The translations under genes were made by a program, and so were the position numbers. A model generated the notes under the pieces. It searched no databases and had not been told where the DNA came from. It saw only the letters and a program-made list of their open reading frames with translations. Shown here piece after piece: positions 4,107 through 21,164 of a DNA stretch of 23,160 nucleotides; within the stretch, counting starts at the first letter, position 1; every line of letters starts with the position of its first letter. The stretch comes from a virus, in the IMG/VR virus record IMGVR_UViG_3300047445_000207, positions 1 to 23,160 of that record; one strand, 5' to 3'.

Positions 4107-4859
4107 ATGTCCGGCAGAAACGCAATGCTTGCCGAATGTAAGTCTTGGGTTACCAAGGCCTATAAGGAGGGCGCGAATAACAACACCGTATTCGGTAAGT
4201 GGTATGGCCTGAACTTCCAGCCTTGGTGCGACATGTACATTAGTTATTGCGCTAACAAGTCTGGTAACGCTAGCGCGGTTGGCAAGTTTGCTTACACTCC
4301 CGCGCACGTGAACTGGTTTAAGTCCCGTAAGCAGTGGGGCCTAACCCCTAAGGTTGGCGCCATTGTCTTTTACGATTGGGACGTCGACGGTATGGCCGAT
4401 CACGTCGGTATCGTGAAGTCGTTTACCGATTCGACGATTACCACCTATGAGGGTAATACCTCTAGCGGCAATGGCGGATCACAGTCTAATGGTGATGGCG
4501 CCTATGAGCGCACGCGTCCCCGTAAGGTCGCTACGGTTCTAGGTTACGGTTATCCGGCCTACGCGCCGGATCCCGTTAGGGCTCCTCCGGTCACCGTAAA
4601 GGCTCCCGCTTTCCCGGGGTTCGATAAGCTTTACCCTGGTAAAGCTTCCCCATATGTGACGCTCCTAGACAAGCGGCTAATTGCCCTGGGGTATAAGCGC
4701 TATTACAAGTCTGGTCCGGGGCCGATGTACGGCACGGGCACCCAGGCTGCGGTTAAGGCCTACCAGGTTGCGCACCCCGAGTTTCAGGCGCACGGTCGAC
4801 CGGACACGGTCTGTGGCGCTAGGCAGTGGGCTGCAATCTTCAAGGGCTATAAGGGCTAA
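4107..4859 (+). CDS. Endolysin: CHAP hydrolase with C-terminal peptidoglycan-binding domain
   Basis: 250 aa. The N-terminal half (about residues 25-150) is a CHAP (NlpC/P60-like) domain: Cys41 in PWCDMYISYC, His99 in ADHVGIV and Glu115/Asn117 in YEGN form the expected Cys-His-Glu/Asn catalytic set, and the GAIVFYDWD strand is typical. A Pro-rich linker (about 150-165) leads to a C-terminal domain (about 170-248) with GTGTQAAVKAYQ, typical of PG_binding_1. CHAP enzymes cut peptidoglycan stem peptides or cross-bridges as amidases or endopeptidases; which bond is cut here cannot be read from sequence. There is no signal peptide, so release would need a holin. AAAGGAG is well placed before the ATG. 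It is the last gene of the rightward late block and is followed by a strong terminator. Confidence 0.9.
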   Translation: MSGRNAMLAECKSWVTKAYKEGANNNTVFGKWYGLNFQPWCDMYISYCANKSGNASAVGKFAYTPAHVNWFKSRKQWGLTPKVGAIVFYDWDVDGMADHVGIVKSFTDSTITTYEGNTSSGNGGSQSNGDGAYERTRPRKVATVLGYGYPAYAPDPVRAPPVTVKAPAFPGFDKLYPGKASPYVTLLDKRLIALGYKRYYKSGPGPMYGTGTQAAVKAYQVAHPEFQAHGRPDTVCGARQWAAIFKGYKG

Positions 4860-4867
4860 AAGGAAAA

Positions 4868-4887
4868 GGGCCCCCTTTCGGGGGCCC
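4868..4887. terminator. Bidirectional terminator between convergent genes
   Basis: Perfect 8-bp stem GGGCCCCC (4868-4875) with GGGGGCCC (4880-4887), loop TTTC. Flanking AAAA on the left and TTCCCTTT on the right give T-rich tails in both directions. It separates the endolysin (plus) from the first minus-strand accessory gene. Confidence 0.85.
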
Positions 4888-4893
4888 TTCCCT

Positions 4894-5133
4894 TTACTTG
4901 AAAACCAGGATCGTTCCGTAGACGTAAGCCCCATCGCGAATCCTCCGGGACTGGATTCCGACTATGTGGGTTTCTTCCCTTGCGATTCCCATTTCGTCAA
5001 CCCCCCAGTTCCAAATCTCGTTAACTAGGGCTTGCGCCTTAGCGCTGTCCTCCGGGTGTTCCGTTCCCGGAAGCCTCCGGTCCTCCAGGACTTTACCGGT
5101 TTCGTCCATTTCCGTGAGCCAAACCGCGTACAT
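4894..5133 (-). CDS. Small hypothetical protein, 79 aa
   Basis: No family recognised. The protein starts MYAVWLTEMDE and ends with a beta-rich stretch (THIVGIQSRRIRDGAYVYGTILVF). The middle (about 25-45) is helical, and there are no membrane segments or cysteines. It is a stand-alone cassette: a promoter at 5185-5213, an untranslated leader with the recurring AGCGGAAGGGG ribosome-binding element (5140-5150), the gene, and a shared terminator at 4868-4887. Confidence 0.7.
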   Translation of the reverse strand: MYAVWLTEMDETGKVLEDRRLPGTEHPEDSAKAQALVNEIWNWGVDEMGIAREETHIVGIQSRRIRDGAYVYGTILVFK

Positions 5134-5184
5134 CCTATTCCCCTTCCGCTGGGCCCGGGGCCCTATCCCCGTTCCGCTGCACTA

Positions 5185-5213
5185 AGTAAAGCATGCCCTT
5201 AGGGGATTAGCAA
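5185..5213 (-). promoter_or_regulatory. Minus-strand promoter with degenerate operator
   Basis: On the minus strand the -35 is TTGCTA (5208-5213), then a 17-nt spacer, then the -10 TTTACT (5185-5190). The spacer holds CCCCTAAGGGCATGC, a decayed relative of the GCACACCC-N5-GGGTGTGC operator seen at the other cassettes. The -35 overlaps the last bases of the upstream terminator stem. It drives the 79-aa gene ending at 4894. Confidence 0.6.
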
Positions 5214-5235
5214 CCCCCCGCTTTAGCGGGGGGTT
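5212..5235 (-). terminator. Terminator of the zinc-ribbon gene
   Basis: Ten-bp perfect stem AACCCCCCGC (5212-5221) with GCGGGGGGTT (5226-5235), loop TTTA. It lies just downstream of the minus-strand gene at 5253-5552. Its distal arm shares two bases with the next promoter's -35, so termination and re-initiation are packed together. Confidence 0.75.
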
Positions 5236-5252
5236 GCCCTTAGCGGTTAGGC

Positions 5253-5552
5253 CTAAAACTCGTAGGCTTCCCTGTCGACCAGCGGGGGAACCATCCCCCT
5301 GGACCACATGGACCGGGCGGAGAGTTCCGCACAGTTAAGGCAAAGCGGTTGCCGGTTTTGCTTCGCACGTTGGAATTCTTCCGGGGTGTATTCCCGGGGG
5401 GCGATTACGCCGTCCACAATCTGAACGTCTACCGGCAAGCCGGTTTCCGGAAGAATCGCAACCCCCATTACCCGGTCGGCATTTTCCAGCAAAAAGGTAA
5501 CGACACTGTGACAGTTAGCGCACTTTGAGACGATTAGTTCGTGTCCGCCCAT
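5253..5552 (-). CDS. Zinc-ribbon-like hypothetical protein, 99 aa
   Basis: The protein has two cysteine pairs, KCANC near the N-terminus (residues about 10-14) and LCLNC near residue 78, which would form a zinc ribbon. Between them are beta strands (VMGVAILPETGLPVDVQIVDG). The family is not recognised. The frame stays open to 5636, but that longer reading would run back through the promoter. ATG at 5552 is preceded by GCGGAAAAGGGATAAGGGAA and is preferred. It is transcribed from the promoter at 5607-5636 and closed by the hairpin at 5212-5235. Confidence 0.72.
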   Translation of the reverse strand: MGGHELIVSKCANCHSVVTFLLENADRVMGVAILPETGLPVDVQIVDGVIAPREYTPEEFQRAKQNRQPLCLNCAELSARSMWSRGMVPPLVDREAYEF

Positions 5553-5580
5553 TTCCCTTATCCCTTTTCCGCCGGGGTTC

Positions 5581-5600
5581 GTCACCCTAACCGGGGTGAC
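5581..5600. repeat. Perfect inverted repeat in leader of zinc-ribbon gene
   Basis: GTCACCC (5581-5587) and GGGTGAC (5594-5600) form a perfect 7-bp dyad. It lies just downstream of the -10 at 5607, so it would be at the start of the transcript. It could be an operator or an mRNA hairpin. The half-site CACCC resembles half of the common cassette operator. Confidence 0.5.
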
Positions 5601-5606
5601 GCGTTG

Positions 5607-5636
5607 ATTAAAACACGCGGGAGTGTTCCCGCGCAA
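5607..5636 (-). promoter_or_regulatory. Minus-strand promoter with a distinct palindromic operator
   Basis: -35 TTGCGC (5631-5636), 18-nt spacer, -10 TTTAAT (5607-5612), all on the minus strand. The spacer region holds a perfect dyad, CGCGGGA (5616-5622) with TCCCGCG (5627-5633), unlike the cassette operator. It lies in the divergent gap before the plus-strand gene at 5657 and may influence both. Confidence 0.6.
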
Positions 5637-5656
5637 CCGTTAGGAGCAAAACGCTA

Positions 5657-5875
5657 ATGACCTTTCTCGACCGTAACCGCGCACGCATCTTTGCCGTTGT
5701 AGCGGCCCTACTGCCTCTCGCATCGGTCTACCTACACAACCTCCCCACGGGGCTTGTCCTGGGCGCCGTAGCGGCCCTCCTGGGCCTCAACGTGGACTCT
5801 CAGACCGTGCCGCTAACCGAGCACGACACTAAGGTTACGGAGGCCCTTTACACTGATGTCCCGTCGGGTGAGTAA
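5657..5875 (+). CDS. Two-TM holin-like small membrane protein
   Basis: 72 aa. After a short charged N-terminus (MTFLDRNRAR) come two hydrophobic segments, about residues 11-28 (IFAVVAALLPLASVYLHN) and 31-46 (TGLVLGAVAALLGLNV), then a polar acidic tail. Size and topology fit class II holins, which form membrane holes that release endolysin. The endolysin is nearby on the same strand, but two minus-strand genes lie between. AGGAG (5642-5646) precedes the ATG by 10 nt. The stop codon lies inside a GTAA-repeat (5868-5892), and a strong terminator follows. Other small membrane functions are possible. Confidence 0.68.
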   Translation: MTFLDRNRARIFAVVAALLPLASVYLHNLPTGLVLGAVAALLGLNVDSQTVPLTEHDTKVTEALYTDVPSGE

Positions 5876-5892
5876 GTAAGTATGTATCTAAC
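5868..5892 (+). repeat. GTAA/GTAT tetranucleotide repeat
   Basis: GTGAGTAAGTAAGTATGTAT followed by CTAAC: five GTRA/GTAT-type units overlapping the stop codon of the holin-like gene. Nearly the same string occurs at 12328-12350, and again inverted at 12366-12388. A shared protein-binding site is possible (inference). Confidence 0.55.
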
Positions 5893-5907
5893 CCCCTAAA
5901 CGACTAA

Positions 5908-5937
5908 GGCCCCCGCCGTAATGGCGGGGGCCCTTTT
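5908..5937. terminator. Bidirectional terminator, holin-like gene / Lsr2-like gene
   Basis: Perfect 10-bp stem GGCCCCCGCC (5908-5917) with GGCGGGGGCC (5923-5932), loop GTAAT, followed by CTTTTC. It sits between convergent genes. Confidence 0.85.
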
Positions 5938-5955
5938 CGTGTTTCCGGCCTACCT

Positions 5956-6381
5956 TTAGCCCTTTACAGGCATGAGGTCATCAACGGAAACGTTGTGCGC
6001 TTGCGCGTAAGACTCCTTAATGTCCATGGGGATCCGGCCCCGGTCCCCCACCTCGTAACCCTCACCGATCGCCCACTGGCGAACCATGTTCAGGTTGTGG
6101 CCGGTGTTCCGGCGGGGGCCGCGCGGAGCGACGGCCGTCCGCGTCCGGATAGGGGCGGCAGGCTTGCGGACAAGCGTAAGGGCCGCGTCCTCATCGATGG
6201 CCGCGCAAGCAATGTACTTAGCGAACATTTCCCGGAAACCGTTTGCCTGGTCCTTAGACGTTTCCAGCTTAAACGCCACACCGTCAAGGGAGAATCGGAC
6301 AATGTCCGAGTCTTCTTCGGCGATAACGTCGCCGGTAACGTCGTCGATAACCTCTACCAGTTCAATGATCTTGCGCGCCAT
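5956..6381 (-). CDS. Lsr2-like nucleoid protein / xenogeneic silencer
   Basis: 141 aa. The N-terminal part (about 1-60: VEVIDDVTGD, DIVRFSLDGVAFKLE) matches the beta-hairpin-plus-helix oligomerisation domain of Lsr2. The C-terminal part (about 96-132: MVRQWAIGEGYEV, DRGRIPMDIKESYAQAH) matches the Lsr2 DNA-binding domain, whose RGR tripeptide (residues 114-116) inserts into the minor groove of AT-rich DNA. Host Lsr2 coats and silences foreign AT-rich genes in actinobacteria; phage copies are known and may silence phage or host genes or interfere with host Lsr2. A linker rich in Pro/Arg (about 72-92) joins the domains. It has its own promoter (6461-6490) and a leader hairpin (6425-6444). Possible targets are the AT-rich blocks at 8100-9900 (inference). 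Confidence 0.85.
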   Translation of the reverse strand: MARKIIELVEVIDDVTGDVIAEEDSDIVRFSLDGVAFKLETSKDQANGFREMFAKYIACAAIDEDAALTLVRKPAAPIRTRTAVAPRGPRRNTGHNLNMVRQWAIGEGYEVGDRGRIPMDIKESYAQAHNVSVDDLMPVKG

Positions 6382-6424
6382 GACCGGGGTTTCCTTTTCC
6401 TTGGTTTCCGCTGGGCGTCAGGAG

Positions 6425-6444
6425 CGGGGGCCTTTCGGCCCCCG
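6425..6444 (-). promoter_or_regulatory. Leader hairpin of the Lsr2-like gene
   Basis: Eight-bp perfect stem CGGGGGCC (6425-6432) with GGCCCCCG (6437-6444), loop TTTC, between the promoter (6461-6490) and the ATG (6381). On the transcribed minus strand no U-run follows, so attenuation or mRNA stabilisation is more likely than full termination. The leader also has CCCAGCGGAAA (6405-6415). Confidence 0.5.
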
Positions 6445-6460
6445 TTCCCTTCTGCTTAGG

Positions 6461-6490
6461 ATTATGCCCTAACCCTTAGGGTTAGCGCAA
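6461..6490 (-). promoter_or_regulatory. Promoter of Lsr2-like gene with CTAACCC dyad
   Basis: Minus strand: -35 TTGCGC (6485-6490), 18-nt spacer, -10 CATAAT (6461-6466). The spacer is largely a perfect dyad, CTAACCC (6469-6475), TTA, GGGTTAG (6479-6485). This differs from the GCACACCC operator, so the gene is probably under another regulator, possibly itself. Confidence 0.6.
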
Positions 6491-6507
6491 CCCCCCCTTT
6501 AGGGGTT
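6489..6507 (-). terminator. Weak terminator of the Glu-rich gene
   Basis: AACCCC (6489-6494) can pair with GGGGTT (6502-6507) around the gene's stop codon. The stem abuts and shares bases with the -35 of the next promoter, the same arrangement as at 5212-5235. The stem is short and there is no U-run. Confidence 0.45.
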
Positions 6508-7700
6508 TACTCGACTCCGAGAATCTCGCCGATTCGCGTGGACTTGTCCATCCAGTAGCGGTAAGCGTTGGACTCTTCCGCGTCGCCCTTAGGGCGGTTA
6601 GCGACGGCGATTTTCGTCCAGTTCTCGAACGCTACCCAGGGGTCACCGTTCAGGCTGAATTCAGCCTTAGCGCGCTCTTCCGGGGAGGGACCTTCCTCTT
6701 CCTCTTCCTCTTCCTCTTCCTCTTCCTCTTCCTCCGCGTCGTCCTCCTGGTCCTCCTCCGGGGCCTCCAGGGCCTCCGGAGCGTCCTCCTGGGGCTCCTC
6801 GGCCTCCGGGTCCGGGGTGGTGTCCGTAGGGGCCTCCAGGGCCTCCGCCATGAGGATCAACTCCGCTTCTACCTCGGTAACACAGTTAGCGCAAGCCTTG
6901 ATTTCCGCAGCCTCCGCCCAGTTCAGTACGGGAAAGCCGTTGAAGTCTCGCGCCGCAGCGCGCTTAACGGTGTTGCACTTTTCCGCGTCATCCTTGTGAT
7001 GCACGGCTTGCCGGTTAGCCGCACTGAAAAGCTTAGACTCAGACACGTTGTGTCCCTTTCCGCTGGGGTGTGATTCAGACTTTAGCGGGTTAGTGCCGTT
7101 CGGGTCAACCCACCCAACCGTTTCCCGGAACCATTCCAGGGCAACGCTGTAATCCGCGTTGCCGATTTCTTCCCCGGTCAATTCCGTGTGGTCACCCAAC
7201 CACAACCGCGCGGCCGTCGCGTACTCCTCTACGGATCCCATGGGGAGCCGTTCCCCTGCCTGAATGTGCATGTCGGTTTCGGTTCCCAGGGCCCGCATTA
7301 CCGCGCGAGTCTCAGCGCTTTCACCGGTAATACGTTCAATGTCGTCCGTGACCATTTCACTTCCCTCCGCCGGGGTGTAGTTAGAGATTACAGGGTTAGC
7401 GGCCTCTGTGTCTATACCCGCCATAATCGCTTTGTGGGTTATCGCAACCGCCTCCGTAATGCGCTCACGGTGCCCGTGGGCCTCCGGGCGGTAGCCGTCC
7501 CCCAGGCTTTCGAACGCGTTTGCCAGCATGACGTTTTCCCGCTTGTTGTCGCCATAGTAGTTAAGGGCAACAGGCTCAAGGTTCTTGAAGATGCGGATAC
7601 GCCAATTATCCTTGTGGCACTCAACGTAGTAAGAGTGAGTTTCCCCGTAAGCGTGATACTGGCCCGATTCGATCCGCGTCCACTTGAGCACCGTTGCCAC
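6507..7700 (-). CDS. Glu-rich hypothetical protein, 397 aa
   Basis: No family recognised. The N-terminal ~210 residues are mixed alpha/beta (WTRIESGQYHAYGETHSYYVECH...). A Cys/His-containing section (about 228-275) has AVHHKDDAEKC and KACANC, a possible zinc site. A very acidic region (about 285-340) ends in 14 consecutive Glu encoded by a hexanucleotide repeat, and the C-terminus (about 345-397) is globular. The GTG start has GGGGAGGGGCTAACC before it and a matched promoter at 7731-7759. An in-frame GTG at 7046 (codon 219) has its own promoter-like sequence and the recurrent AGCGGAAAGGGA ribosome-binding element, so a shorter 179-aa product may also be made, or two genes have fused. Function unknown. 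Confidence 0.75.
   Translation of the reverse strand: MATVLKWTRIESGQYHAYGETHSYYVECHKDNWRIRIFKNLEPVALNYYGDNKRENVMLANAFESLGDGYRPEAHGHRERITEAVAITHKAIMAGIDTEAANPVISNYTPAEGSEMVTDDIERITGESAETRAVMRALGTETDMHIQAGERLPMGSVEEYATAARLWLGDHTELTGEEIGNADYSVALEWFRETVGWVDPNGTNPLKSESHPSGKGHNVSESKLFSAANRQAVHHKDDAEKCNTVKRAAARDFNGFPVLNWAEAAEIKACANCVTEVEAELILMAEALEAPTDTTPDPEAEEPQEDAPEALEAPEEDQEDDAEEEEEEEEEEEEEEGPSPEERAKAEFSLNGDPWVAFENWTKIAVANRPKGDAEESNAYRYWMDKSTRIGEILGVE
6693..6734. repeat. Hexanucleotide microsatellite, seven TTCCTC units
   Basis: Seven perfect tandem copies of TTCCTC (GAGGAA on the coding strand) encode 14 Glu in the Glu-rich protein. A change of whole units would lengthen or shorten the Glu run without a frameshift. 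Confidence 0.9.
7079..7108 (-). promoter_or_regulatory. Candidate internal promoter within the Glu-rich gene
   Basis: Minus strand: TTGACC (7103-7108), 18-nt spacer, TAAAGT (7079-7084). The distance to the in-frame GTG at 7046 (33 nt) matches the other cassettes, and AGCGGAAAGGGACA (7051-7064) lies between. It could give a transcript for the C-terminal 179 aa only. Confidence 0.4.
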
Positions 7701-7730
7701 GGTTAGCCCCTCCCCTTTGTCGTTGCCCTA

Positions 7731-7759
7731 AGTAAAGCACACCCGTTAGGGGTGTGCAA
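7731..7759 (-). promoter_or_regulatory. Cassette promoter-operator (Glu-rich gene)
   Basis: Minus strand: -35 TTGCAC (7754-7759), 17-nt spacer, -10 TTTACT (7731-7736). A perfect dyad, GCACACCC (7737-7744), GTTAG, GGGTGTGC (7750-7757), fills the space between and includes part of the -35. Confidence 0.75.
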
Positions 7760-7767
7760 GCCCCTAA

Positions 7768-7787
7768 GGGCCCCCTTTCGGGGGCCC
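7768..7787 (-). terminator. Terminator of the 57-aa gene
   Basis: Perfect 8-bp stem GGGCCCCC (7768-7775) with GGGGGCCC (7780-7787), loop TTTC, just past the stop at 7801 on the minus strand and just before the next promoter. The U-run is poor. Confidence 0.65.
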
Positions 7788-7800
7788 CGTTAGCGGGGGG

Positions 7801-7974
7801 TTACTCGTCGTCGCCTATGAGGCCCCGGAGGAACATCGCGCGGCGGATCCGCCAATCGGCCAACTGCACCTCTTCCGGGGTTTCGGCGTAAAGGGCGCGA
7901 CGCTCCTGGGCCTCTATGTCATCCTCGCCCTCAAAGTACTTGTAAGTCTCTCCATCGAGCGTGACTTCCAGCAT
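7801..7974 (-). CDS. Acidic mini-protein, 57 aa
   Basis: No family recognised. The protein begins MLEVTLDGETYKYFEG (beta hairpin), followed by a charged helix (DDIEAQERRALYAETPEEVQLADWRIRRAMFLRGLIG). The frame is open to 8049, but that would translate the promoter itself. ATG 7974, directly after TTAGCGGAAAGGGAAGCC, is the supported start. It is a single-gene cassette with promoter at 8021-8049 and terminator at 7768-7787. Confidence 0.68.
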   Translation of the reverse strand: MLEVTLDGETYKYFEGEDDIEAQERRALYAETPEEVQLADWRIRRAMFLRGLIGDDE

Positions 7975-8020
7975 TAGGCTTCCCTTTCCGCTAAGGCCTC
8001 TAACCGGCCCCTCTGGAAGA

Positions 8021-8049
8021 ATTAAAGCACACCCCGTCAGGGTGTGCAA
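8021..8049 (-). promoter_or_regulatory. Cassette promoter-operator (57-aa gene)
   Basis: Minus strand: -35 TTGCAC (8044-8049), 17-nt spacer, -10 TTTAAT (8021-8026). Perfect dyad GCACACCC (8027-8034), CGTCA, GGGTGTGC (8040-8047). Confidence 0.78.
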
Positions 8050-8069
8050 GCCCCCTTAGGGCCCTTAGC

Positions 8070-8084
8070 TATTACGGCGTAATA
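8070..8084. repeat. Palindrome TATTACGGCGTAATA, copy 1
   Basis: A 15-bp odd palindrome, identical to the core at 10987-11001. It lies upstream (minus sense) of the promoter at 8021-8049, at the edge of a gene-free repeat block. A protein-binding dyad is likely (inference). Confidence 0.6.
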
Positions 8085-8099
8085 ATCCCGCACCCCTTA

Positions 8100-8350
8100 A
8101 GGGTGGACGGTTAGAGGTATGGACAAAAGGGACAAAATGGACATTTCGGGTATAGGGGGTTTTATCATGATATAAGTCGCGCAGGGCGACATGACCGATT
8201 GGTCCTTTATGTCATGATTTATCATCATAAGATATACCATAGTGGACATTTCGGACTTAACGGACATTTCCGACATTTCGGGTATGGCCATTTTATGATG
8301 ATTTATTGCCATAAGTCCGCCCATAGTGGACATTAGCGACATGTCCGATT
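8100..8350. repeat. Gene-free AT-rich repeat block 1
   Basis: About 250 bp without a credible gene, much more AT-rich than its surroundings. It contains GGACATTTCGG-type elements near 8139, 8244, 8262 and 8271 (two of them 18 bp apart), CCATAGTGGACATT twice (8238, 8321), GACATTTCGGGTAT twice (8140, 8272) each followed by TTTTATSATGAT, and TTTATCATCAT/ATGATGATTTAT elements. GGACAT...ATGTCC at 8328-8346 is a dyad. It lies between a terminator (8361-8388) and the promoter at 8021. It may be an iteron-type origin, a multi-site regulator array or an Lsr2 target; none is proven. Confidence 0.6.
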
Positions 8351-8360
8351 AAAGGCAAAA

Positions 8361-8388
8361 GAAAGGCCCCCCTTCCGGGGGGCCTTTC
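8361..8388 (-). terminator. Strong terminator of the 95-aa gene
   Basis: Perfect 12-bp stem GAAAGGCCCCCC (8361-8372) with GGGGGGCCTTTC (8377-8388), loop TTCC. On the minus strand it is followed by TTTTGCC. It directly follows the stop codon at 8389. Confidence 0.85.
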
Positions 8389-8676
8389 CTAGAAGCCTCG
8401 CGCTTCCAGCTTCGCCCTGGCTTCCATCACTGCCGGGCTGACCGGCTCAAAGTCTCCGGTGTACGCGTACCCGGTCCGGGGCTTGGCTTCCTCGGCAGCC
8501 ATCCAGGCCTCCGCCGCAACCTCGTCCCGGAGGTATGGGGCGCCCTGTACGCGGGCCCCCCAGGGGGTCTTAGCCTCCGTCCGGCTCCAGGGGCCCTTAG
8601 CGCCGTAGCCGTCCGCCGTGATGACCTTCCAGGAGTAGGTGCCGTTCGCCTCTTTGCGGGTCTTGAGCGTAGCCAT
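8389..8676 (-). CDS. Small hypothetical protein, 95 aa
   Basis: No family recognised. The N-terminus (MATLKTRKEANGTYSWKVITADGYG) looks like a small beta-sheet fold of the kind seen in DNA-binding arm domains. The C-terminal half is Ala/Glu-rich helix (DEVAAEAWMAAEEAKP, AVMEARAKLEARGF). The start ATG is preceded by GGGGAAAGGAACCG. It has its own promoter (8722-8750) and terminator, and AT-rich repeat blocks flank it on both sides. Confidence 0.72.
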   Translation of the reverse strand: MATLKTRKEANGTYSWKVITADGYGAKGPWSRTEAKTPWGARVQGAPYLRDEVAAEAWMAAEEAKPRTGYAYTGDFEPVSPAVMEARAKLEARGF

Positions 8677-8721
8677 TTTCGGTTCCTTTCCCCGGGGGCC
8701 CGTCCCCCTCTCGATGTCTTA

Positions 8722-8750
8722 ATTATGGCACACCCTAGGGGCGTGTGCAA
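8722..8750 (-). promoter_or_regulatory. Cassette promoter-operator (95-aa gene)
   Basis: Minus strand: -35 TTGCAC (8745-8750), 17-nt spacer, -10 CATAAT (8722-8727). Dyad GCACACCC (8728-8735), TAGGG, GCGTGTGC (8741-8748), with one mismatch. Confidence 0.75.
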
Positions 8751-8759
8751 CCCCTAATC

Positions 8760-8920
8760 CCGGTAACTTTAAGTGATTAGGCATGTCTAATATTTCACCC
8801 AATGGGCGCCATGAGATGATAAATCCCCCGTCGTCCACCATATGATGATAAAACCCCCTAATCGGACATTAGGGACTAGTCCGATTTGTGGCTTTTGTCC
8901 CTTTTGTGGCTTTTGTCTAT
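8760..8920. repeat. Gene-free AT-rich repeat block 2
   Basis: Contains GATGATAAATCCCCC (8815-8829). A 34-bp stretch (8840-8873, beginning ATATGATGATAAAACCCCC and ending GGACATTAGG) matches 9864-9897 at 29 of 34 positions. There is a dyad ATCGGAC (8861-8867) with GTCCGAT (8879-8885), and two 15-bp direct repeats TTTGTGGCTTTTGTC (8885-8899, 8903-8917), 18 bp apart. GGACAAAA at 8121 is the reverse complement of part of this repeat, so blocks 1 and 2 are partly mirror images around the 95-aa gene. No gene is seen. Confidence 0.6.
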
Positions 8921-8936
8921 TCTGACCCAAAGGAAA

Positions 8937-8958
8937 GGGGGCCCCCGTAGGGGCCCCC
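8937..8958 (-). terminator. Terminator of the 54-aa gene
   Basis: Perfect 9-bp stem GGGGGCCCC (8937-8945) with GGGGCCCCC (8950-8958), loop CGTA, followed on the minus strand by TTTCCTTTGG. Confidence 0.78.
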
Positions 8959-8970
8959 GTCCTTACCGGC

Positions 8971-9135
8971 CTACTCGCTGTCGGTGACCTGGATCATCAC
9001 CTCCGCTGCCTTAAGGCGGTTGATCCGGGTGGTGGAGATAACCTCCCCGTCCGCATCGGTAACGATAACCTCGTACTCATCACCCATGAAAATCATTTCG
9101 ATTTTCTGACCGCTCCGGGCATTGAAAGTAGGCAT
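8971..9135 (-). CDS. Acidic mini-protein, 54 aa
   Basis: A short gene of 54 codons plus TAG, starting MPTFNARSGQKIEMIFMGDE and ending AAEVMIQVTDSE. No family is recognised; the pattern is a small beta fold (KIEMIFMGDEYEVIVTDADGEVIS) followed by a helix. Support comes from its setting: AGAGGGAA ribosome binding site 8 nt before the ATG, promoter-operator at 9185-9213, and terminator at 8937-8958, the same cassette design as its neighbours. Confidence 0.68.
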   Translation of the reverse strand: MPTFNARSGQKIEMIFMGDEYEVIVTDADGEVISTTRINRLKAAEVMIQVTDSE

Positions 9136-9184
9136 TCGCCGGTTCCCTCTTGAGTTGTTACCCGCCGTGCTCGGCGTTAGGACT

Positions 9185-9213
9185 ATTAAAGCACACCCCT
9201 AGGGTGTGTGCAA
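9185..9213 (-). promoter_or_regulatory. Cassette promoter-operator (54-aa gene)
   Basis: Minus strand: -35 TTGCAC (9208-9213), 17-nt spacer, -10 TTTAAT (9185-9190). Dyad GCACACCC (9191-9198), CTAGG, GTGTGTGC (9204-9211), with one mismatch. Confidence 0.76.
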
Positions 9214-9234
9214 AGCCCTAACCGGCCTAAAGTC

Positions 9235-9438
9235 TCAAGAGTTTTGGAGTTCTTCCAAATGGGCCATGATGGCATTCATTACGGCGTATTCGTTAGGACA
9301 CCCTACGGCCGTCCAGTCGCCGCCGCTAACGGCGTACGACCCGTCATCCAGCCTTAGCGACTGAAAGTCAATGCCGTTAACGGTGGTCCTGAACGTGTCC
9401 CCCGGTGTTGCGTACTCAAAGGGGTTGTACCCGTCCAT
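9235..9438 (-). CDS. Small hypothetical protein, 67 aa
   Basis: Begins MDGYNPFEYATPGDTFRTTV and has a compact mixed fold with a C-terminal helix (NEYAVMNAIMAHLEELQ). No family recognised. GGAGGCAGGGGACG precedes the ATG. It is the exception in this region: no cassette-type promoter lies in front of it, and the only hairpin upstream (9524-9545) should terminate the neighbouring transcript. No clear terminator follows before the promoter at 9185. It may use a weak promoter not recognised here or depend on read-through. Confidence 0.62.
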   Translation of the reverse strand: MDGYNPFEYATPGDTFRTTVNGIDFQSLRLDDGSYAVSGGDWTAVGCPNEYAVMNAIMAHLEELQNS

Positions 9439-9523
9439 GCGTCCCCTGCCTCCCTGCGGCCCTCCAGGGCCTCTCTACGCCCCTCACAGTACAGGCCCGG
9501 TCTCCTCGTGCCCAGACATGCCA

Positions 9524-9545
9524 GAGGGCCCCCGTAGGGGCCCTC
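9524..9545 (-). terminator. Terminator of the zinc-binding 64-aa gene
   Basis: Perfect 9-bp stem GAGGGCCCC (9524-9532) with GGGGCCCTC (9537-9545), loop CGTA. No U-run on the minus strand, so strength is uncertain. Confidence 0.65.
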
Positions 9546-9558
9546 GTGGCGCGGGAGG

Positions 9559-9753
9559 CTAGTCCTCCTGGGGACCGTAATCGTTCACGAGGTGGTTACC
9601 GGCCTCCTCGGCCCAGTAGAGGGCCGCATCGTGGCAGTCCTGGCAGGGAACCTCCACGGTGCACGTGTAGTGGCCCCCAGGGGCTTTCTCAAGGCAGTGC
9701 ACGCACCGTGCAACCGGGGTGCCTGCGTCGTGCCAAAGGACGGTGTCCATCAT
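9559..9753 (-). CDS. Zinc-binding mini-protein, 64 aa
   Basis: Contains CVHC (residues about 17-20) and CQDC (about 37-40) with nearby His and Cys (HYTC), so a small zinc ribbon is likely. The remainder is acidic. Such proteins in phages often bind host proteins or nucleic acids, but no specific family is recognised. The leader carries CCAGCGGAAAGGG just before the double ATG; the first ATG is best spaced. Promoter at 9805-9833 and terminator at 9524-9545. Confidence 0.7.
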   Translation of the reverse strand: MMDTVLWHDAGTPVARCVHCLEKAPGGHYTCTVEVPCQDCHDAALYWAEEAGNHLVNDYGPQED

Positions 9754-9804
9754 GGCTAAACCCTTTCCGCTGGAGGCGGGGCCCTAATCCCGCCCGATGG
9801 GTCA

Positions 9805-9833
9805 ATTAAAGCACACCCAATAGGGGTGTGCAA
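9805..9833 (-). promoter_or_regulatory. Cassette promoter-operator (64-aa gene)
   Basis: Minus strand: -35 TTGCAC (9828-9833), 17-nt spacer, -10 TTTAAT (9805-9810). Perfect dyad GCACACCC (9811-9818), AATAG, GGGTGTGC (9824-9831). Confidence 0.78.
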
Positions 9834-9854
9834 CCCCAATCCTAGTTTAGGCGA

Positions 9855-9900
9855 TGTCGTACTATATGCGCATAAATCCCCCTAACCGGACATTAGGAGG
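9855..9900. repeat. Repeat block 3, shared 34-bp element
   Basis: 9864-9897 (starting ATATGCGCATAAATCCCCC, ending GGACATTAGG) matches 8840-8873 at 29 of 34 positions. As in blocks 1 and 2, it lies between a gene's terminator and the next promoter. Confidence 0.65.
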
Positions 9901-9910
9901 CAAAGCAAAA

Positions 9911-9930
9911 GGGGCCCCCTAAGGGGCCCC
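9911..9930 (-). terminator. Terminator of the 60-aa gene
   Basis: GGGGCCCC (9911-9918) pairs with GGGGCCCC (9923-9930), loop CTAA, followed on the minus strand by TTTTGCTTTG, a good U-rich tail. Confidence 0.78.
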
Positions 9931-9940
9931 CGTAACCACC

Positions 9941-10123
9941 TTACCGGTGCGCCATGTGCTGGCCTACCCTAATCGCGTTACGTCGACCCATAACGCGCGT
10001 CACGCGCTTAACGTTAGGGCCCGTTACGATTACCGCAAACCTCCCCGGCTGGTCCGTGCTAACGAGCCGTACGCCGTTGCCAAGCTCCATCCGGACAACA
10101 TCCTTTGAGCTGCTCGTAACCAC
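9941..10123 (-). CDS. Basic mini-protein, 60 aa
   Basis: With the GTG start at 10123 the protein is beta-rich then strongly basic (PNVKRVTRVMGRRNAIRVGQHMAHR), suggesting nucleic-acid binding, though no family is recognised. The frame remains open to 10180, inside the promoter, so that longer start is rejected. GTG at 10123 follows GCAAAGGGGAAAAGC with ideal spacing. The alternative ATG at 10090 lacks such a site. Own promoter (10152-10180) and terminator. Confidence 0.65.
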   Translation of the reverse strand: MVTSSSKDVVRMELGNGVRLVSTDQPGRFAVIVTGPNVKRVTRVMGRRNAIRVGQHMAHR

Positions 10124-10151
10124 GCTTTTCCCCTTTGCCGTCGTTGCCTCT

Positions 10152-10180
10152 ATTAAAGCACGCCCGCGAGGGGTGTGCAA
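10152..10180 (-). promoter_or_regulatory. Cassette promoter-operator (60-aa gene)
   Basis: Minus strand: -35 TTGCAC (10175-10180), 17-nt spacer, -10 TTTAAT (10152-10157). Dyad GCACGCCC (10158-10165), GCGAG, GGGTGTGC (10171-10178), with one mismatch. Confidence 0.76.
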
Positions 10181-10199
10181 GCCTAATCCGGAAACGAGA

Positions 10200-10221
10200 A
10201 AGGGCCCCCGGAGGGGCCCTT
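10200..10221 (-). terminator. Terminator of the 99-aa gene
   Basis: Perfect 9-bp stem AAGGGCCCC (10200-10208) with GGGGCCCTT (10213-10221), loop CGGA, followed on the minus strand by TCTCGTTTCC. Confidence 0.75.
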
Positions 10222-10228
10222 AAGGGGG

Positions 10229-10528
10229 TTAGCAGGCGTAAGCCATCTCTCGCCACCCGTCAATCACTTCCCGCGTCTGAGGAGCCGCGTAAAGCGGGAT
10301 CCGACGCGCCTCCTCCTCGCTCGTGTAGTAGTACACGACGTGCTCAACAGTGATGGCGTGAAAGCAGTCAGAAACGTACATGTCCCAAGCAGTGTCCATC
10401 CCCTCGTACACATCGCTAAAGCCACGGGAAAAAGAACCATCCTTGCTGTATACGGTGAACGCTCCCTCACCCGACATGCCGTACTCCGTGGCAGTGGAGG
10501 TAATCTCGATGAAAGCAATCGCGTACAT
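10229..10528 (-). CDS. Small hypothetical protein, 99 aa
   Basis: MYAIAFIEITSTATEYGMSG begins a beta-rich N-terminal half. The second half has aromatic and acidic residues (VEHVVYYYTSEEEARRIPLY). No family, membrane segment or metal site is recognised. AAGGGG (10537-10542 as its complement) precedes the ATG. Promoter-operator at 10587-10615 and terminator at 10200-10221 make it the rightmost minus-strand cassette. The plus-strand gene at 10721 diverges from it. Confidence 0.72.
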   Translation of the reverse strand: MYAIAFIEITSTATEYGMSGEGAFTVYSKDGSFSRGFSDVYEGMDTAWDMYVSDCFHAITVEHVVYYYTSEEEARRIPLYAAPQTREVIDGWREMAYAC

Positions 10529-10586
10529 TGTGACCCCTTAGGGGTTGTGGAGGGACCGGCCCTAATCGGTCCCTCGCGATGCCTCT

Positions 10587-10615
10587 ATTAAAGCACACAC
10601 CCAGGGGGTGTGCAA
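10587..10615 (-). promoter_or_regulatory. Cassette promoter-operator (99-aa gene)
   Basis: Minus strand: -35 TTGCAC (10610-10615), 17-nt spacer, -10 TTTAAT (10587-10592). Dyad GCACACAC (10593-10600), CCAGG, GGGTGTGC (10606-10613), with one mismatch. It lies back to back with the plus-strand promoter at 10630. Confidence 0.76.
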
Positions 10616-10629
10616 CCCCGATTAGGGGG

Positions 10630-10658
10630 TTGCGCCTAAAGCGCTAAGGGGCTAAAGT
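10630..10658 (+). promoter_or_regulatory. Plus-strand promoter of the 52-aa gene
   Basis: -35 TTGCGC (10630-10635), 17-nt spacer, -10 TAAAGT (10653-10658). Just downstream, GGTTAGG (10673-10679) and CCTAACC (10681-10687) form a perfect dyad, extended by GTCGG/CCGAC, as a possible operator or leader hairpin. CCCAGCGG (10693-10700), the recurrent leader element, follows. Confidence 0.62.
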
Positions 10659-10720
10659 TCTGTCTGTCGGGAGGTTAGGGCCTAACCGACAACCCAGCGG
10701 ATAACTCAAAAGGGGACGAC

Positions 10721-10879
10721 ATGATCACTGAGACTGAACTCGCGATCATTGATGCGGCTAACGACGAGTACCGTCGAATCGCCGGAATCATGATCCAGGG
10801 CGGTTGGGACATCGGCGCCATTCGGCACGCACACCGCGCCAACAACGGCGGTTGCCCCGGTTGCCACTACTGCGACTGA
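10721..10879 (+). CDS. Zinc-binding mini-protein, 52 aa
   Basis: A 52-codon gene starting MITETELAIIDAANDEYRRI: a helix, then GGWDIGAIRHAHRANNGG and a C-terminal metal-type cluster CPGCHYCD. No family recognised; it is probably a small zinc-binding adaptor. AAAAGGGG is well spaced before the ATG. It has its own promoter and a 12-bp terminator (10887-10914), so it is a full plus-strand cassette. Confidence 0.72.
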   Translation: MITETELAIIDAANDEYRRIAGIMIQGGWDIGAIRHAHRANNGGCPGCHYCD

Positions 10880-10886
10880 TCAAACC

Positions 10887-10914
10887 GAAAGGGCCTCCGA
10901 AAGGGGGCCCTTTC
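10887..10914 (+). terminator. Terminator of the 52-aa gene
   Basis: Twelve-bp stem GAAAGGGCCTCC (10887-10898) with GGGGGCCCTTTC (10903-10914), one U-G pair, loop GAAA, followed by TTTATG. Confidence 0.8.
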
Positions 10915-10965
10915 TTTATGTCCGTTTAGGGTTAGCTTATGCCTATAAATCCTGACATAGGCTAA

Positions 10966-10985
10966 GGGCCCCCTTTCGGAGGCCC
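10966..10985 (-). terminator. Terminator of the DUF3987-type gene
   Basis: GGGCCCCC (10966-10973) and GGAGGCCC (10978-10985) pair with one G-U on the minus strand, loop TTTC. A second, longer inverted repeat, GCCTAT (10941-10946) with ATAGGC (10957-10962), flanked by TTAG/CTAA, lies just beyond it. Confidence 0.55.
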
Positions 10986-11002
10986 CTATTACGGCGTAAT
11001 AG
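10986..11002. repeat. Palindrome CTATTACGGCGTAATAG, copy 2
   Basis: A perfect 17-bp odd palindrome whose 15-bp core also occurs at 8070-8084. Here it lies immediately after the stop codon of the DUF3987-type gene. Confidence 0.65.
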
Positions 11003-11009
11003 CTGACCG

Positions 11010-12311
11010 CTAAACGTACCCGTCCGCACCCTCTTCCCCAACCCAGTAGTACACCGTGGACGGCCGTCCCATGTCGTTACGCCTTAGCTTGGAGTCGACG
11101 GGCAACCCTTCCATCATCGCATCGATTTCCGGCCTAGGCCTACCCTTGCCGACGATATCCCTAATTTCGCTAATGCTTAGCCCGTCATCCCCTGCCTGAT
11201 GCAGGGCCCGTGCGAGAGGGTTAGTGGCCGGAGGAGCCTCCGAACGGCTATAGGCAGACTTTAGCGTATACTCCGCGCTTTCCATGCTGTATCGAAAGAG
11301 CGCGTCTGCCGCCTTAAGGTCCCTTACGCCGATCTGCTTTCGGCCGTCCGCAATGGCGTACAGGGCCGCGAGCCTAAGCGTGTACGGGGCCCTACGGGCC
11401 GTAAACTGGGCTAGCGTCTCATCCTCCGGATTCTCCCTTGCAATAGCCTCATACATGTAATCGGCCCAATACTCTCCCGCATCCTTAGTGCGGGTAATCA
11501 GAAAGTCGTCCCCCTGATTAAACCATGCCGCATTAAAGGCCAGTTCCTTAGCGCAAGCCTTTAGCTCTTTCATGTCCACATCGCCCCCGTCGGGCAAACT
11601 CTGTACCTGGTGAACGTGAAGGATGAGATAGCGGTTATAGCTACCTCCCGCAAGCTCCTTAGCGCGCATCATGTCCCGAAACTCTCCGGGGCTAATGTGT
11701 CCCAAAACGGCGATGTGTGGACGGGTAGCGGTCATGCTGCCTTTTTTGGTTCGTGTCTTAAGGTCGTCTCCGTCCCACGCTTGACGGAGGACACCGGAAA
11801 GGGAGCCGCTCCTAGCGGAACGTGTCATGAGGTTAGCGTACTCCGATTCGATTACGAAACGCCTTTGGTCCCCGATCATATCCGGGTCAATTTCCATAGG
11901 CTTACCCGTAAGGGCCAGAATGCTTTGGATGTCTTCCAGGGCCTCCGGAGTAGGATCCTCCACTTCCTTAATAAGTCCCTCACCCGACGAAATACCGCTA
12001 ACGGTGTTTGTCTTGAAAAAGTCGTCATCCGCCAACCGCAGTAGCGCTTTAGCGGCACTGGTGGCCGAGCCTTTCCGGCCGTCCGAGGTGCGCCCCAACA
12101 AAAGGGCCCAAACTAGGGCAGGGTGGTTATCCAGGGCAGAAATCTTGACTCGCGCCTGCGGGCCGACCAGGGCCGAGAAACCAACCAGGAGGCTCCCCAG
12201 GATCCCCACGGGGTCCCCCTCGGTCCCTGGGGCCAGCGTGCGGACGGTACGGCCCAAGAGGCCGCTGTAAACGGTGTCCTTCGGCTGCGGTCGCTCCGTG
12301 ACGACTGCCAA
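11010..12311 (-). CDS. DUF3987-type (YfjI-like) helicase/primase-associated ATPase
   Basis: About 433 aa. The pattern GRTSDGRKGSATSAAK (residues about 73-88), GISSGEGLI (about 105-113), RRFVIESEYA and LRQAWDG, AVLGHISPGEF, and GGSYNRYLILHV matches DUF3987 P-loop proteins, found in phages and plasmids and often fused or linked to primases. It probably acts as a replication ATPase or helicase, perhaps at the origin. The C-terminal ~70 residues (ISEIRDIVGKGRPRPEIDAM...) form a winged-helix DNA-binding domain. The frame extends to a GTG at 12320, but GGGGA abuts that codon; TTG at 12311, eight nt after GGAG, is better spaced and is chosen. It lies alone, divergent from the genes at 12552. Confidence 0.78.
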   Translation of the reverse strand: MAVVTERPQPKDTVYSGLLGRTVRTLAPGTEGDPVGILGSLLVGFSALVGPQARVKISALDNHPALVWALLLGRTSDGRKGSATSAAKALLRLADDDFFKTNTVSGISSGEGLIKEVEDPTPEALEDIQSILALTGKPMEIDPDMIGDQRRFVIESEYANLMTRSARSGSLSGVLRQAWDGDDLKTRTKKGSMTATRPHIAVLGHISPGEFRDMMRAKELAGGSYNRYLILHVHQVQSLPDGGDVDMKELKACAKELAFNAAWFNQGDDFLITRTKDAGEYWADYMYEAIARENPEDETLAQFTARRAPYTLRLAALYAIADGRKQIGVRDLKAADALFRYSMESAEYTLKSAYSRSEAPPATNPLARALHQAGDDGLSISEIRDIVGKGRPRPEIDAMMEGLPVDSKLRRNDMGRPSTVYYWVGEEGADGYV

Positions 12312-12327
12312 CGTGATCACTCCCCGA

Positions 12328-12388
12328 GTGAGTAAGTATGTATGTAACTAAGTGCCGTGCTGGGATAGATACTTACTTACATACCTAC
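12328..12388. repeat. Inverted GTAA/GTAT tetranucleotide repeat in divergent control region
   Basis: The left arm (12328-12350, GTGAGTAAGTATGTATGTAA then CTA) and the right arm (12366-12388, inverted) match at 17 of 23 positions when reverse-complemented; all shared bases keep a 4-nt period. A third copy is at 5868-5892. A minus-strand TTGACG (12393-12398) lies just upstream, so the repeats probably overlap the DUF3987 gene's promoter. The rest of 12321-12550 contains no gene. Confidence 0.6.
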
Positions 12389-12453
12389 GCTGCGTCAAGT
12401 CGCTTCCGCGTATGGGGAGTTGAGACCCCCCAGGGTGAGGCCTAGGCCGATAC

Positions 12454-12482
12454 TTGCACACCCCCAAGGCGTGTGCTTCAAT
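12454..12482 (+). promoter_or_regulatory. Cassette promoter-operator, plus-strand copy
   Basis: -35 TTGCAC (12454-12459), 17-nt spacer, -10 TTCAAT (12477-12482). Dyad GCACACCC (12456-12463), CCAAG, GCGTGTGC (12469-12476), with one mismatch. It is the only copy facing right and drives the genes at 12552 and 12832. Confidence 0.74.
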
Positions 12483-12551
12483 GAGGCTGTTGGAAGGGGC
12501 GGGGCCAATTAGGGGGCCCTAAACCCAGCCATGCACTTAGGAAGTGATCTT

Positions 12552-12788
12552 ATGGGTGACTCTTGCATTGCCCGCACGTCTAAGCGGGCGAAGGCTAGCC
12601 GTAATGAGTACGTGGAGACCGTTATGGGCGAGGCTAAAGCCTGGGAACGCGTCCACTACTGGGCTAAGTTTTTCACTGGTCACGGTTTCGGTGATCGGTT
12701 TGGATTTTACCACGAACATGTGGGTTACGGTGCTTACAAGATTTACCAGGTAGATCGTTCCATCGAGCGTAAGACACTTGCGGCATAA
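12552..12788 (+). CDS. Small hypothetical protein, 78 aa
   Basis: Begins MGDSCIARTSKRAKASRNEY: a basic N-terminal part, then an aromatic and His-rich middle (WAKFFTGHGFGDRFGFYHEHVGYGAYKIYQV). No family recognised. An ATG at 12531 is also in frame, but AGGAAGTG (12539-12546) is placed for the ATG at 12552. It is the first of two genes behind the promoter-operator at 12454. Confidence 0.68.
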   Translation: MGDSCIARTSKRAKASRNEYVETVMGEAKAWERVHYWAKFFTGHGFGDRFGFYHEHVGYGAYKIYQVDRSIERKTLAA

Positions 12789-12831
12789 CGAGCCGTCCTG
12801 TTAAATAGGCTTTCCAGCGGAAGGAAAACCA

Positions 12832-13098
12832 ATGGATGTCCTCGTGACCTTATACTTCCCCCACCCCAAAGGGGGGTGGATTGATCTAGGCGCCGGACGA
12901 ATGAACGTTAAGGGCGCTAACGGCCTAACCGAAAAAGTTGCTAGAATCTGCCTAGCCTCATTCATTCAATCCACCGTTCCTGATCACCCAGACGCGCCTA
13001 AGCCGTACGATCCTGAAAAGGTTATTGCCTCCGCCACGTTCGGAGACTTGGGAACACTATACGTCGACGGAAACGGCACCCCTAAAGTGGTCGCATGA
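12832..13098 (+). CDS. Small hypothetical protein, 88 aa
   Basis: A beta-rich N-terminus (MDVLVTLYFPHPKGGWIDLG) with a later helix (TEKVARICLASFIQS) and a C-terminal hairpin (GTLYVDGNGTPKVV). No family recognised. The leader has CCAGCGGAAGGAAAAC (12814-12829) directly before the ATG, the same element used by minus-strand cassettes. It probably shares a transcript with the preceding gene and ends at the terminator 13102-13130. Confidence 0.72.
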   Translation: MDVLVTLYFPHPKGGWIDLGAGRMNVKGANGLTEKVARICLASFIQSTVPDHPDAPKPYDPEKVIASATFGDLGTLYVDGNGTPKVVA

Positions 13099-13132: not shown

Positions 13133-13546
13133 TTACGTTAGGGACATGAGCCCTTCTGGGCTATCCCACACAATACGGGTAACGCCAGACTTCCAAATCG
13201 CTGTCTCGCATTCGTCACACGGGGCCCTGGTGATGTACAGGGTTGCCTTTATGGTTCCTCGCCTGCCTGCCTCCTCCAATGCGTTTCGCTCCGCATGGAC
13301 AGCTATACAGTCCCCGTAGGAGCCTCCTGGAGGCCGCTCCGAGTAGTCCAGTCGCCCTCTGGGGCATGCGCCCGCAGTAAGGCACCCAGGGGCCCCCGAG
13401 GGGGCCCCGTTGTAGCCAGTAGCCATGATGCGATTGTCCTTGACCAGGACCGCGCCAACCTGCGATCTAGTGCAGTCTGCCCTAGCCGCTACCGCCCTTG
13501 CTACGCCAATAAAGTATGCGTCCCAACTTGTGCGGCTAATGGCTAT
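13133..13546 (-). CDS. dCMP deaminase, apparent ATA start
   Basis: About 137 aa. It deaminates dCMP to dUMP, the substrate for ThyX two genes upstream. Zinc ligands and catalytic Glu are visible: HAE (His84, Glu86) and PCDEC (Cys110, Cys113). The typical N-terminal core is also present (RADCTRSQVGAVLVKDN, then TGYNGAP). The first ATG in frame (13426) would remove that core. The frame opens only after a TGA at 13556-13558 and contains no ATG, GTG or TTG before 13426. ATA at 13546 overlaps the previous gene's TAG stop (ATAG) and follows GAGGGCGAGGG, so translational coupling from ATA is proposed; ATT at 13540 is an alternative. Enzyme identity is secure, the start is not. Confidence 0.82.
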   Translation of the reverse strand: MAISRTSWDAYFIGVARAVAARADCTRSQVGAVLVKDNRIMATGYNGAPSGAPGCLTAGACPRGRLDYSERPPGGSYGDCIAVHAERNALEEAGRRGTIKATLYITRAPCDECETAIWKSGVTRIVWDSPEGLMSLT

Positions 13547-13695
13547 CCCTCGCCCTCAACGCCACCCCCGCCGCCTCCACCTGCCGCCTGATGCTGCGCG
13601 TCGGTGGAATTCATGCAGTCCTCAATGGGCCACGAATATTGCATGCCGCAAATCGTGCACTCGTAATAGGTGGAAACCTTTTCCACGATAGCCAT
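13543..13695 (-). CDS. Zinc-finger-like mini-protein with Gly tail, 50 aa
   Basis: Begins MAIVEKVSTYYECTICGMQY: CTIC, then WPIEDC and a later His give a possible zinc finger; the C-terminus is seven Gly followed by VEGEG. No family recognised. GGAGG before the ATG overlaps the end of ThyX, and its TAG stop overlaps the putative ATA start of the deaminase. The gene may act mainly as a translational bridge between ThyX and the deaminase (inference). Confidence 0.68.
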   Translation of the reverse strand: MAIVEKVSTYYECTICGMQYSWPIEDCMNSTDAQHQAAGGGGGGGVEGEG

Positions 13696-13699
13696 TTAG

Positions 13700-19868: not shown

Positions 19869-20097
19869 TACCGAAATCGGTTATCCCCTCTCTCCACATG
19901 ACCAGGGCGAAACTGTCGCCCCCGAAATCGCACGTATGACATTTGAAGGTGTTCAACCCTGTATTGACGGACGCGCTAGCGCTACGGTCCTCATGGAAGG
20001 GGCACTTAACCGGGGCCCAAGAGCCCCGGTCGTTAACGTGCTCCGCGTCGTAATGCTCTAGCAATTCCTTAATGGACGGCTTATCTACCGGATCCAT
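19693..20097 (-). CDS. CHC2 zinc-finger part of DNA primase
   Basis: 134 aa. Zinc ligands Cys32, His35, Cys53 and Cys56 in KCPFHEDRSASASV and FKCHTCDFGGDS are those of the DnaG/CHC2 family, which senses the template site for priming. After about residue 85 the sequence becomes Arg-rich (GKGKRRRRSVLEEE...) and coincides with the conserved start of the TOPRIM frame, so the tail probably has no conserved role. The ATG overlaps the upstream stop (TAATG). Confidence 0.8.
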   Translation of the reverse strand: MDPVDKPSIKELLEHYDAEHVNDRGSWAPVKCPFHEDRSASASVNTGLNTFKCHTCDFGGDSFALVMWREGITDFGSAIEFCEGILGGSYGGIQQGGKGKRRRRSVLEEEVRAPVAGQRSILSSRRSRRPVAGS

Positions 20098-20291: not shown

Positions 20292-20293
20292 GC

Positions 20294-21154: not shown

Positions 21155-21164
21155 GTTTTCTCCT

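Follow-up and report, generated by a model that had tools for sequence, protein, structure and literature searches.

A palindromic dyad nested in a repeated phage promoter as the probable operator of a candidate L5/R4-type immunity repressor

In the 23,160-nucleotide (nt) viral DNA IMGVR_UViG_3300047445_000207, analysed over its whole length and referred to here as the window (G000 in comparisons), eight promoters share an inverted repeat fitted into the spacer between the -35 and -10 elements, which raises the question of what reads this repeat and to what effect. A preliminary description of the sequence had proposed that a single phage regulator could switch the genes behind these promoters and had recognised no such regulator in the window. 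The idea of one phage regulator was supported in silico by the conservation of the repeat, the fixed geometry of its arms, its spread over related genomes and the presence of a candidate regulator in relatives. We hold with reasonable confidence that the dyads are operators of an immunity repressor, the likely repressor being a 142-amino-acid (aa) helix-turn-helix (HTH) protein distantly related to L5 gp71 and the R4-type repressors.

The repeated promoter and its dyad in the window

The dyad GCACACCC-N5-GGGTGTGC was matched 10 times in the window at up to three mismatches, compared to a mean of 0.18 and a maximum of 2 in 100 dinucleotide shuffles, and these observed and expected counts ruled out chance palindromes. 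Nine of the 10 matches had at most one mismatch; eight of these were inside promoters and one, at 21969, had no visible promoter. The remaining match, at 20709 with three mismatches, is probably due to chance.

All eight promoters of the preliminary description were present, with three perfect dyads and five carrying one mismatch. A TTGCAC -35 element and a 17-nt spacer were found in every one of them, and the -10 hexamer was TTTAAT in five and TTTACT, CATAAT and TTCAAT in one each. TTGCAC consists of TT and the first four bases of the dyad, which places the -35 element inside the left arm, and the TTTAAT-like hexamer begins at the base 3' of the dyad, hence the 17-nt spacer. The right arm ends in TGTGC immediately before the -10 element, and this end contains what we take to be the TGn of an extended -10 element. 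Position 7 of the arm was degenerate (C, A or G). A generic sigma-70 scan of positions 4800-12900 flagged one of the eight promoters and three sites in total compared to 3.0 in shuffles; most dyad promoters were missed because an A at the second -10 position is obligatory in that scan.

The coordinates first given for the eight sites were correct as starts of 29-base-pair (bp) promoter blocks and not as starts of dyads. The distance from site to gene, put at 29-70 nt, was 28-58 nt when remeasured from the end of the -10 element to the likely start codon. The promoters and related sites of the window are as follows, with G002 to G006 denoting related records described below.

7731-7759, minus strand: promoter with nested dyad 7737-7757 (0 mismatches) and -10 TTTACT, before the 397-aa gene 6507-7700; orthologous promoters in G002, G004, G005 and G006
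8021-8049, minus strand: promoter with nested dyad 8027-8047 (0 mismatches) and -10 TTTAAT, before the 57-aa gene 7801-7974, which starts at 7974
8722-8750, minus strand: promoter with nested dyad 8728-8748 (1 mismatch) and -10 CATAAT, before the 95-aa gene 8389-8676; dyad kept in G002 and G006, left arm gone in G004 and G005
9185-9213, minus strand: promoter with nested dyad 9191-9211 (1 mismatch) and -10 TTTAAT, before the 54-aa gene 8971-9135; orthologues in G002 and G004
9805-9833, minus strand: promoter with nested dyad 9811-9831 (0 mismatches) and -10 TTTAAT, before gene 9559-9753 and probably gene 9235-9438; orthologues in G002 and G006
10152-10180, minus strand: promoter with nested dyad 10158-10178 (1 mismatch) and -10 TTTAAT, before a gene of about 60 aa ending at 9941, with start candidates at 10123 and 10090
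10587-10615, minus strand: promoter with nested dyad 10593-10613 (1 mismatch) and -10 TTTAAT, before the 99-aa gene 10229-10528; orthologues in G002, G004, G005 and G006
12454-12482, plus strand: promoter with nested dyad 12456-12476 (1 mismatch) and -10 TTCAAT, before the 85-aa gene 12531-12788; orthologues in G002, G004, G005 and G006
5185-5213, minus strand: promoter built in the same way, its operator decayed by loss of the left arm, comprising TTG, a 17-nt spacer, TGC-TTTACT and a CAGCG start region, before the 79-aa gene 4894-5133
21969-21989, minus strand: dyad without visible promoter (1 mismatch), 15 bp upstream of the DnaB-like gene 21165-21953; conserved in position in G002, G003, G004 and G006

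The view that each site serves a single small gene held in part. Terminator-like hairpins were found 3' of the genes ending at 8389, 8971, 9941 and 10229, as expected of single-gene cassettes; however, the gene behind the 7737 dyad is 397 aa long, and the promoter at 9811 probably serves both genes listed for it, with no site between them. Upstream of the 21969-21989 dyad a hairpin with a T-run was seen by eye, and the dyad here may be a roadblock site.

Conservation of the dyad and promoter in related records

An exact scan of IMG/VR returned 18 stretches, among which eight records (G001-G008) were relatives of the window, with 72.6-99.9% identity where aligned. The search for the dyad in related phages, proposed as a check in the preliminary description, thus found the same sites in eight related records. 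The record G006 (also L026; 45,003 bp) has a 127-bp terminal repeat and is therefore taken as complete. At up to two mismatches there were 15 sites in G006, 16 in G002 (48,197 bp) and nine in the window, compared to an expected 0.00-0.01 per 20 kilobases (kb). Four more short relatives, L055, L057, L058 and L060, carried 5, 1, 1 and 4 sites, respectively, and were kept outside all site counts. A distant relative, L010, whose portal-like protein was 54-56% identical, had one perfect dyad and no further copy. All relatives found share one dyad. Two other records, L007 and L019, had no similarity to this phage group, and a search for further relatives with the DUF3987 protein gave six loci, all in records already known. 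No match was found by megablast of the window against phage records. Lysogens were sought in genome contigs by protein and promoter pattern and none was found, in a search that needed exact short matches and could detect only close relatives. The host is probably an actinobacterium, as judged from the best ribonucleotide reductase (RNR) protein matches, which were in Rhodococcus and Streptomyces phages at 58% identity.

In G006, no dyad was present between 15050 and 32883, the structural-gene region. Of its 15 sites, assigned by eye, eight had TTGCAC and a -10-like hexamer at 17 nt, four abutted other -10-like hexamers and three had neither. Dyads abutting TANNNT hexamers were found before the gene of the candidate repressor (TACGGT), near the right end (TAGGTT) and before the integrase gene (TACGTT), and a second right-end dyad abutted ATAGTT. 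The integrase-side dyad, at 8606-8626, is flanked by an excisionase-like gene and the integrase gene, and therefore integration may share the same control. The integrase, encoded at 7317-8558, is of the tyrosine type (PF00589, 3.2e-8; PHROG 1, 1.4e-45) and was found in an integrase scan that covered G006. Extra dyads were present 26 and 50 bp upstream of the two right-end dyads of G006, and G002, G003, G004 and G008 carried an extra dyad 90-92 bp upstream of the dyad in the repressor-candidate promoter. The right-end, integrase and repressor-promoter sites match the expected places of action of an immunity repressor.

For conservation, 40 sites fitting the promoter design in seven non-redundant records were collected as class P. 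The conservation of dyad, -35 and -10 is partly built into this class because its members were selected on them; N5 and the YAWCG motif described below were unselected. G007 and G008, near copies of G000 (99.9%) and G002 (99.4%), respectively, were excluded from class P and from the ortholog and spacing counts. Orthologous promoters were compared in eight families, giving 51 pairs with intact dyads only, so that the orthologues of the 95-aa-gene promoter lacking the left arm (G004 and G005) were excluded. The outer arms differed at 0 of 612 positions compared to 113 of 255 in N5, which bore out the earlier view that the arms are under selection while N5 varies. Differences amounted to 21 of 204 in the inner arm, 30 of 306 in the -10 element, 14 of 255 in YAWCG and 360 of 918 in the 18 upstream bases. 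GCACAC was found opposite GTGTGC in 59 cases at a distance of 9 bp and in none at any other spacing from 0 to 24.

Past the -10 element and five loose bases, class P promoters carried a YAWCG motif (Y in 40 of 40, A in 34, W in 37, C in 32 and G in 39). It was found 6-10 nt past the -10 in most of them, as at 7721-7725 and 9795-9799 of the window, and was absent at 8027 and 12456. The A of this motif, 7 nt past the -10, is the likely transcription start.

The dyads could also form hairpins in RNA, possibly as terminators of the upstream gene, and a terminator scan did flag three of the eight. In the 40 class P sites, however, inner-arm changes were not matched by the partner base (A-G in 11 cases, C-T in 9 and A-T in none), which argues that the dyad is read in DNA and not as an RNA stem. 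This argument is confined to class P, because at the inner-arm position the dyads that precede the repressor-candidate gene of G002 and G006 are symmetric. Moreover, several genes already have separate hairpins downstream, the tail of the would-be terminator is merely TTTAAT, and TTGCAC and YAWCG are conserved in the fashion of a promoter. We consider the hairpin explanation very improbable.

Five promoters in four records had lost the left arm (window 5185-5213; G006 33254; G004 15623; G005 11915 and 15999). Each of the five retained a -35 TTG, a TGC preceding the -10 and a YANCG start; the search pattern that found them required a -10-like hexamer and the YANCG start. Promoter and operator are therefore separable, since these promoters lost an arm and kept their core, and the genes behind them may escape repression. 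Free half-sites were considered as stoperators and rejected, as they were not enriched outside dyads: GGGTGTGC occurred 1, 2 and 0 times in G000, G002 and G006, compared to 0.6, 1.5 and 1.6 in shuffles.

The same dyads could instead be activator sites, or part of promoters for a phage sigma factor, serving coordinated middle lytic expression and not lysogenic silencing. T replaces A at the second -10 position in 33 of the 40 class P promoters, YAWCG is conserved at the likely start, and the window encodes a sigma-like protein (16935-17579, minus strand) that matched PHROG 354 'sigma-K factor' at E 6.3e-17 and matched nothing in Pfam or NCBIfam at E <= 0.1; promoters of the TTTAAT class could be read by a phage sigma factor. 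A sigma factor, however, leaves the 21-bp twofold symmetry unexplained, and the promoters without a left arm indicate that a promoter of this kind can be defined without the dyad. The occurrence of the dyad at TANNNT promoters and away from promoters makes an activator less likely. A repressor is favoured by the ordinary length of the 17-nt spacer, the position of the -35 and extended -10 within the arms, the integrase in a relative and the resemblance of the candidate to immunity repressors. Activation or sigma-dependent expression is thus judged unlikely.

The candidate regulator

The window's regulator is probably the 142-aa HTH protein, which in relatives is encoded past the point where the truncated window ends. 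Its gene (6166-6594 in G006) lies about 0.8-1.2 kb beyond that point, and in all five records holding it (G002, G003, G004, G006 and G008) a dyad is present in its own promoter, where it abuts a TANNNT hexamer. When a profile of four annotated Streptomyces phage immunity repressors was run against 2191 open reading frames (ORFs) from the window and its eight relatives, its five best matches were the copies of the candidate (E 5.6e-4 to 9.3e-3), and the next ORF had an E value of 4.7. By hhalign, the candidate aligned to the Salutena repressor at 5.5e-5 over residues 64-135 and to nine repressors at 3.1e-4 over residues 18-137. The gene order of G006 is that of Salutena, namely repressor, Cas4-like exonuclease and DnaB-like helicase, with the cas4 and DnaB model matches below the curated cut-offs. 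By sequence similarity and syntenic position, the candidate falls with the L5/R4-type family. A tblastn search with the candidate against 50,697 phage records returned one unrelated sigma-factor stretch at E 0.4.

Several results weigh against this assignment and against the operator reading built on it. The candidate gene is outside the window itself. A nine-sequence repressor profile ranked the same five ORFs first at E values of only 0.009-0.22. The AlphaFold model of the candidate was poor, with a predicted local distance difference test (pLDDT) score of 60.5, and although the best Foldseek match of the full-length model, 7r6r, is itself an immunity repressor (of cluster A2, bound to DNA) and so speaks for the assignment, the match was weak, at E 0.06 with a probability of 0.97. 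VIA-align of the model gave generic HTH chains at Z <= 6.2; 7r6r was not among the 50 matches listed, which does not exclude it. The C-terminal part alone had no match, a sequence search of the PDB with the candidate found no relative, and its Pfam HTH matches were below the cut-off. The palindrome is not predicted by the family either, because the known relatives bind asymmetric sites as monomers (PMC9283540). Finally, the conserved site at 21969 has no visible promoter.

The dyads could be repressor operators read by another phage protein, the 142-aa protein having a different role. The family assignment rests on weak scores, and G006 encodes two other DNA-binding candidates, an excisionase-like protein (8635-8823) and a 72-aa protein (9159-9377) that matched no family. 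However, a dyad in the gene's own promoter, a match to the immunity-repressor profile and the gene neighbours of a repressor come together in the 142-aa gene only, and the excisionase-like gene adjoins the integrase gene, as a role in excision would predict. A different regulator is therefore unlikely in our judgment, and the 142-aa protein is preferred as the repressor.

Proposed mechanism and comparison with known systems

In a lysogen, the repressor, bound to the 21-bp palindrome of each promoter, would mask the -35 and extended -10 elements and keep RNA polymerase off so that initiation is blocked. A drop in repressor level would release the units together, and the dyads at the repressor's own promoter would provide autoregulatory feedback. 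The sites, their geometry and conservation, the integrase, the candidate gene, its dyad and its family resemblance were read from the sequence; from these we infer binding, repression, lysogeny and the reading of both arms.

PMC9283540 and PMC6550527 describe cluster A repressors as monomers on 13-bp asymmetric sites, most of which are stoperators outside promoters. As in the cluster A mycobacteriophages L5 and TipsytheTRex, one repressor would serve genome-wide sites that include right-end early and repressor promoters; the repressor gene is syntenic and the candidate protein distantly similar. In contrast to cluster A, the sites here are 21-bp palindromes, 40 of them inside one promoter design. 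A stoperator array would consist of short asymmetric sites, all oriented alike with respect to transcription and mostly outside promoters, whereas these palindromes have arms fixed 9 bp apart and eight of the nine in the window are in promoters. In Rhodococcus cluster CA phages, 25 asymmetric sites are reported for Rasputin (PMC13313380). Literature searches listed no description of the present dyad.

For Streptomyces phages, PMC10276819 reports a repressor-stoperator system of the R4 type and gives serine integrases for its phages, compared to the tyrosine integrase of G006. The R4-like phages (Arquatrovirinae, including Salutena) likewise have the repressor beside a Cas4-like exonuclease and a DnaB-like helicase, and the Salutena repressor was the closest sequence match to the candidate. 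Unlike the present group, Salutena (L044) has no repeated palindrome and carries an asymmetric repeat, TGTGCAAGTGTCGC, with 26 matches at up to three mismatches in 41 kb compared to 4.5 expected, which looks like a stoperator array. Because the arm of the palindrome (TTGCACA on one strand) and the Salutena repeat have a core in common, the palindrome may be an inverted repeat of a stoperator core.

In phiC31, a repressor acts with conserved inverted repeats. That temperate Streptomyces phage also has many copies of one palindrome (15 exact copies of TACTCACGTGAGTA); in contrast, its palindrome is unrelated to the present one and its annotated repressor gene (19274-21325) is about 2 kb long. 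The phages studied here seem to combine a protein of the cluster A/L5 family with an operator layout nearer to that of phiC31.

An L5/R4-type repressor that acts not at asymmetric stoperators but at numerous palindromic operators in promoters is the most likely arrangement on present sequence evidence, and this phage group seems to keep an L5-like repressor family yet use palindromic operators built into promoters. More tentatively, and with slightly less than an even chance in our estimate, an L5/R4-type lineage moved from monomeric reading of asymmetric stoperators to a symmetric palindrome in which the -35 and extended -10 of the promoter itself serve as arms, with one operator per promoter replacing roadblocks between genes. 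If true, one repressor family can switch from asymmetric to symmetric recognition and the origin of stoperators becomes testable; the sites would also form a set of natural repressible promoters, probably working in actinobacteria.

Three minor features were also observed. Four tRNA genes (His, Leu, Asn and Phe) were found by ARAGORN at 13237-14398 of G006. GTAAGTATGTATGTA-like runs, inverted or repeated, were seen by eye near gene starts at 12325-12390 and 5874-5892 of the window, with similar runs in L005, L010 and L013. A+T-richer stretches containing repeats of the word GGACATT and runs resembling TGATGATTTAT were likewise seen by eye between cassettes of the window at 8120-8350, 8800-8900 and 9885-9895.

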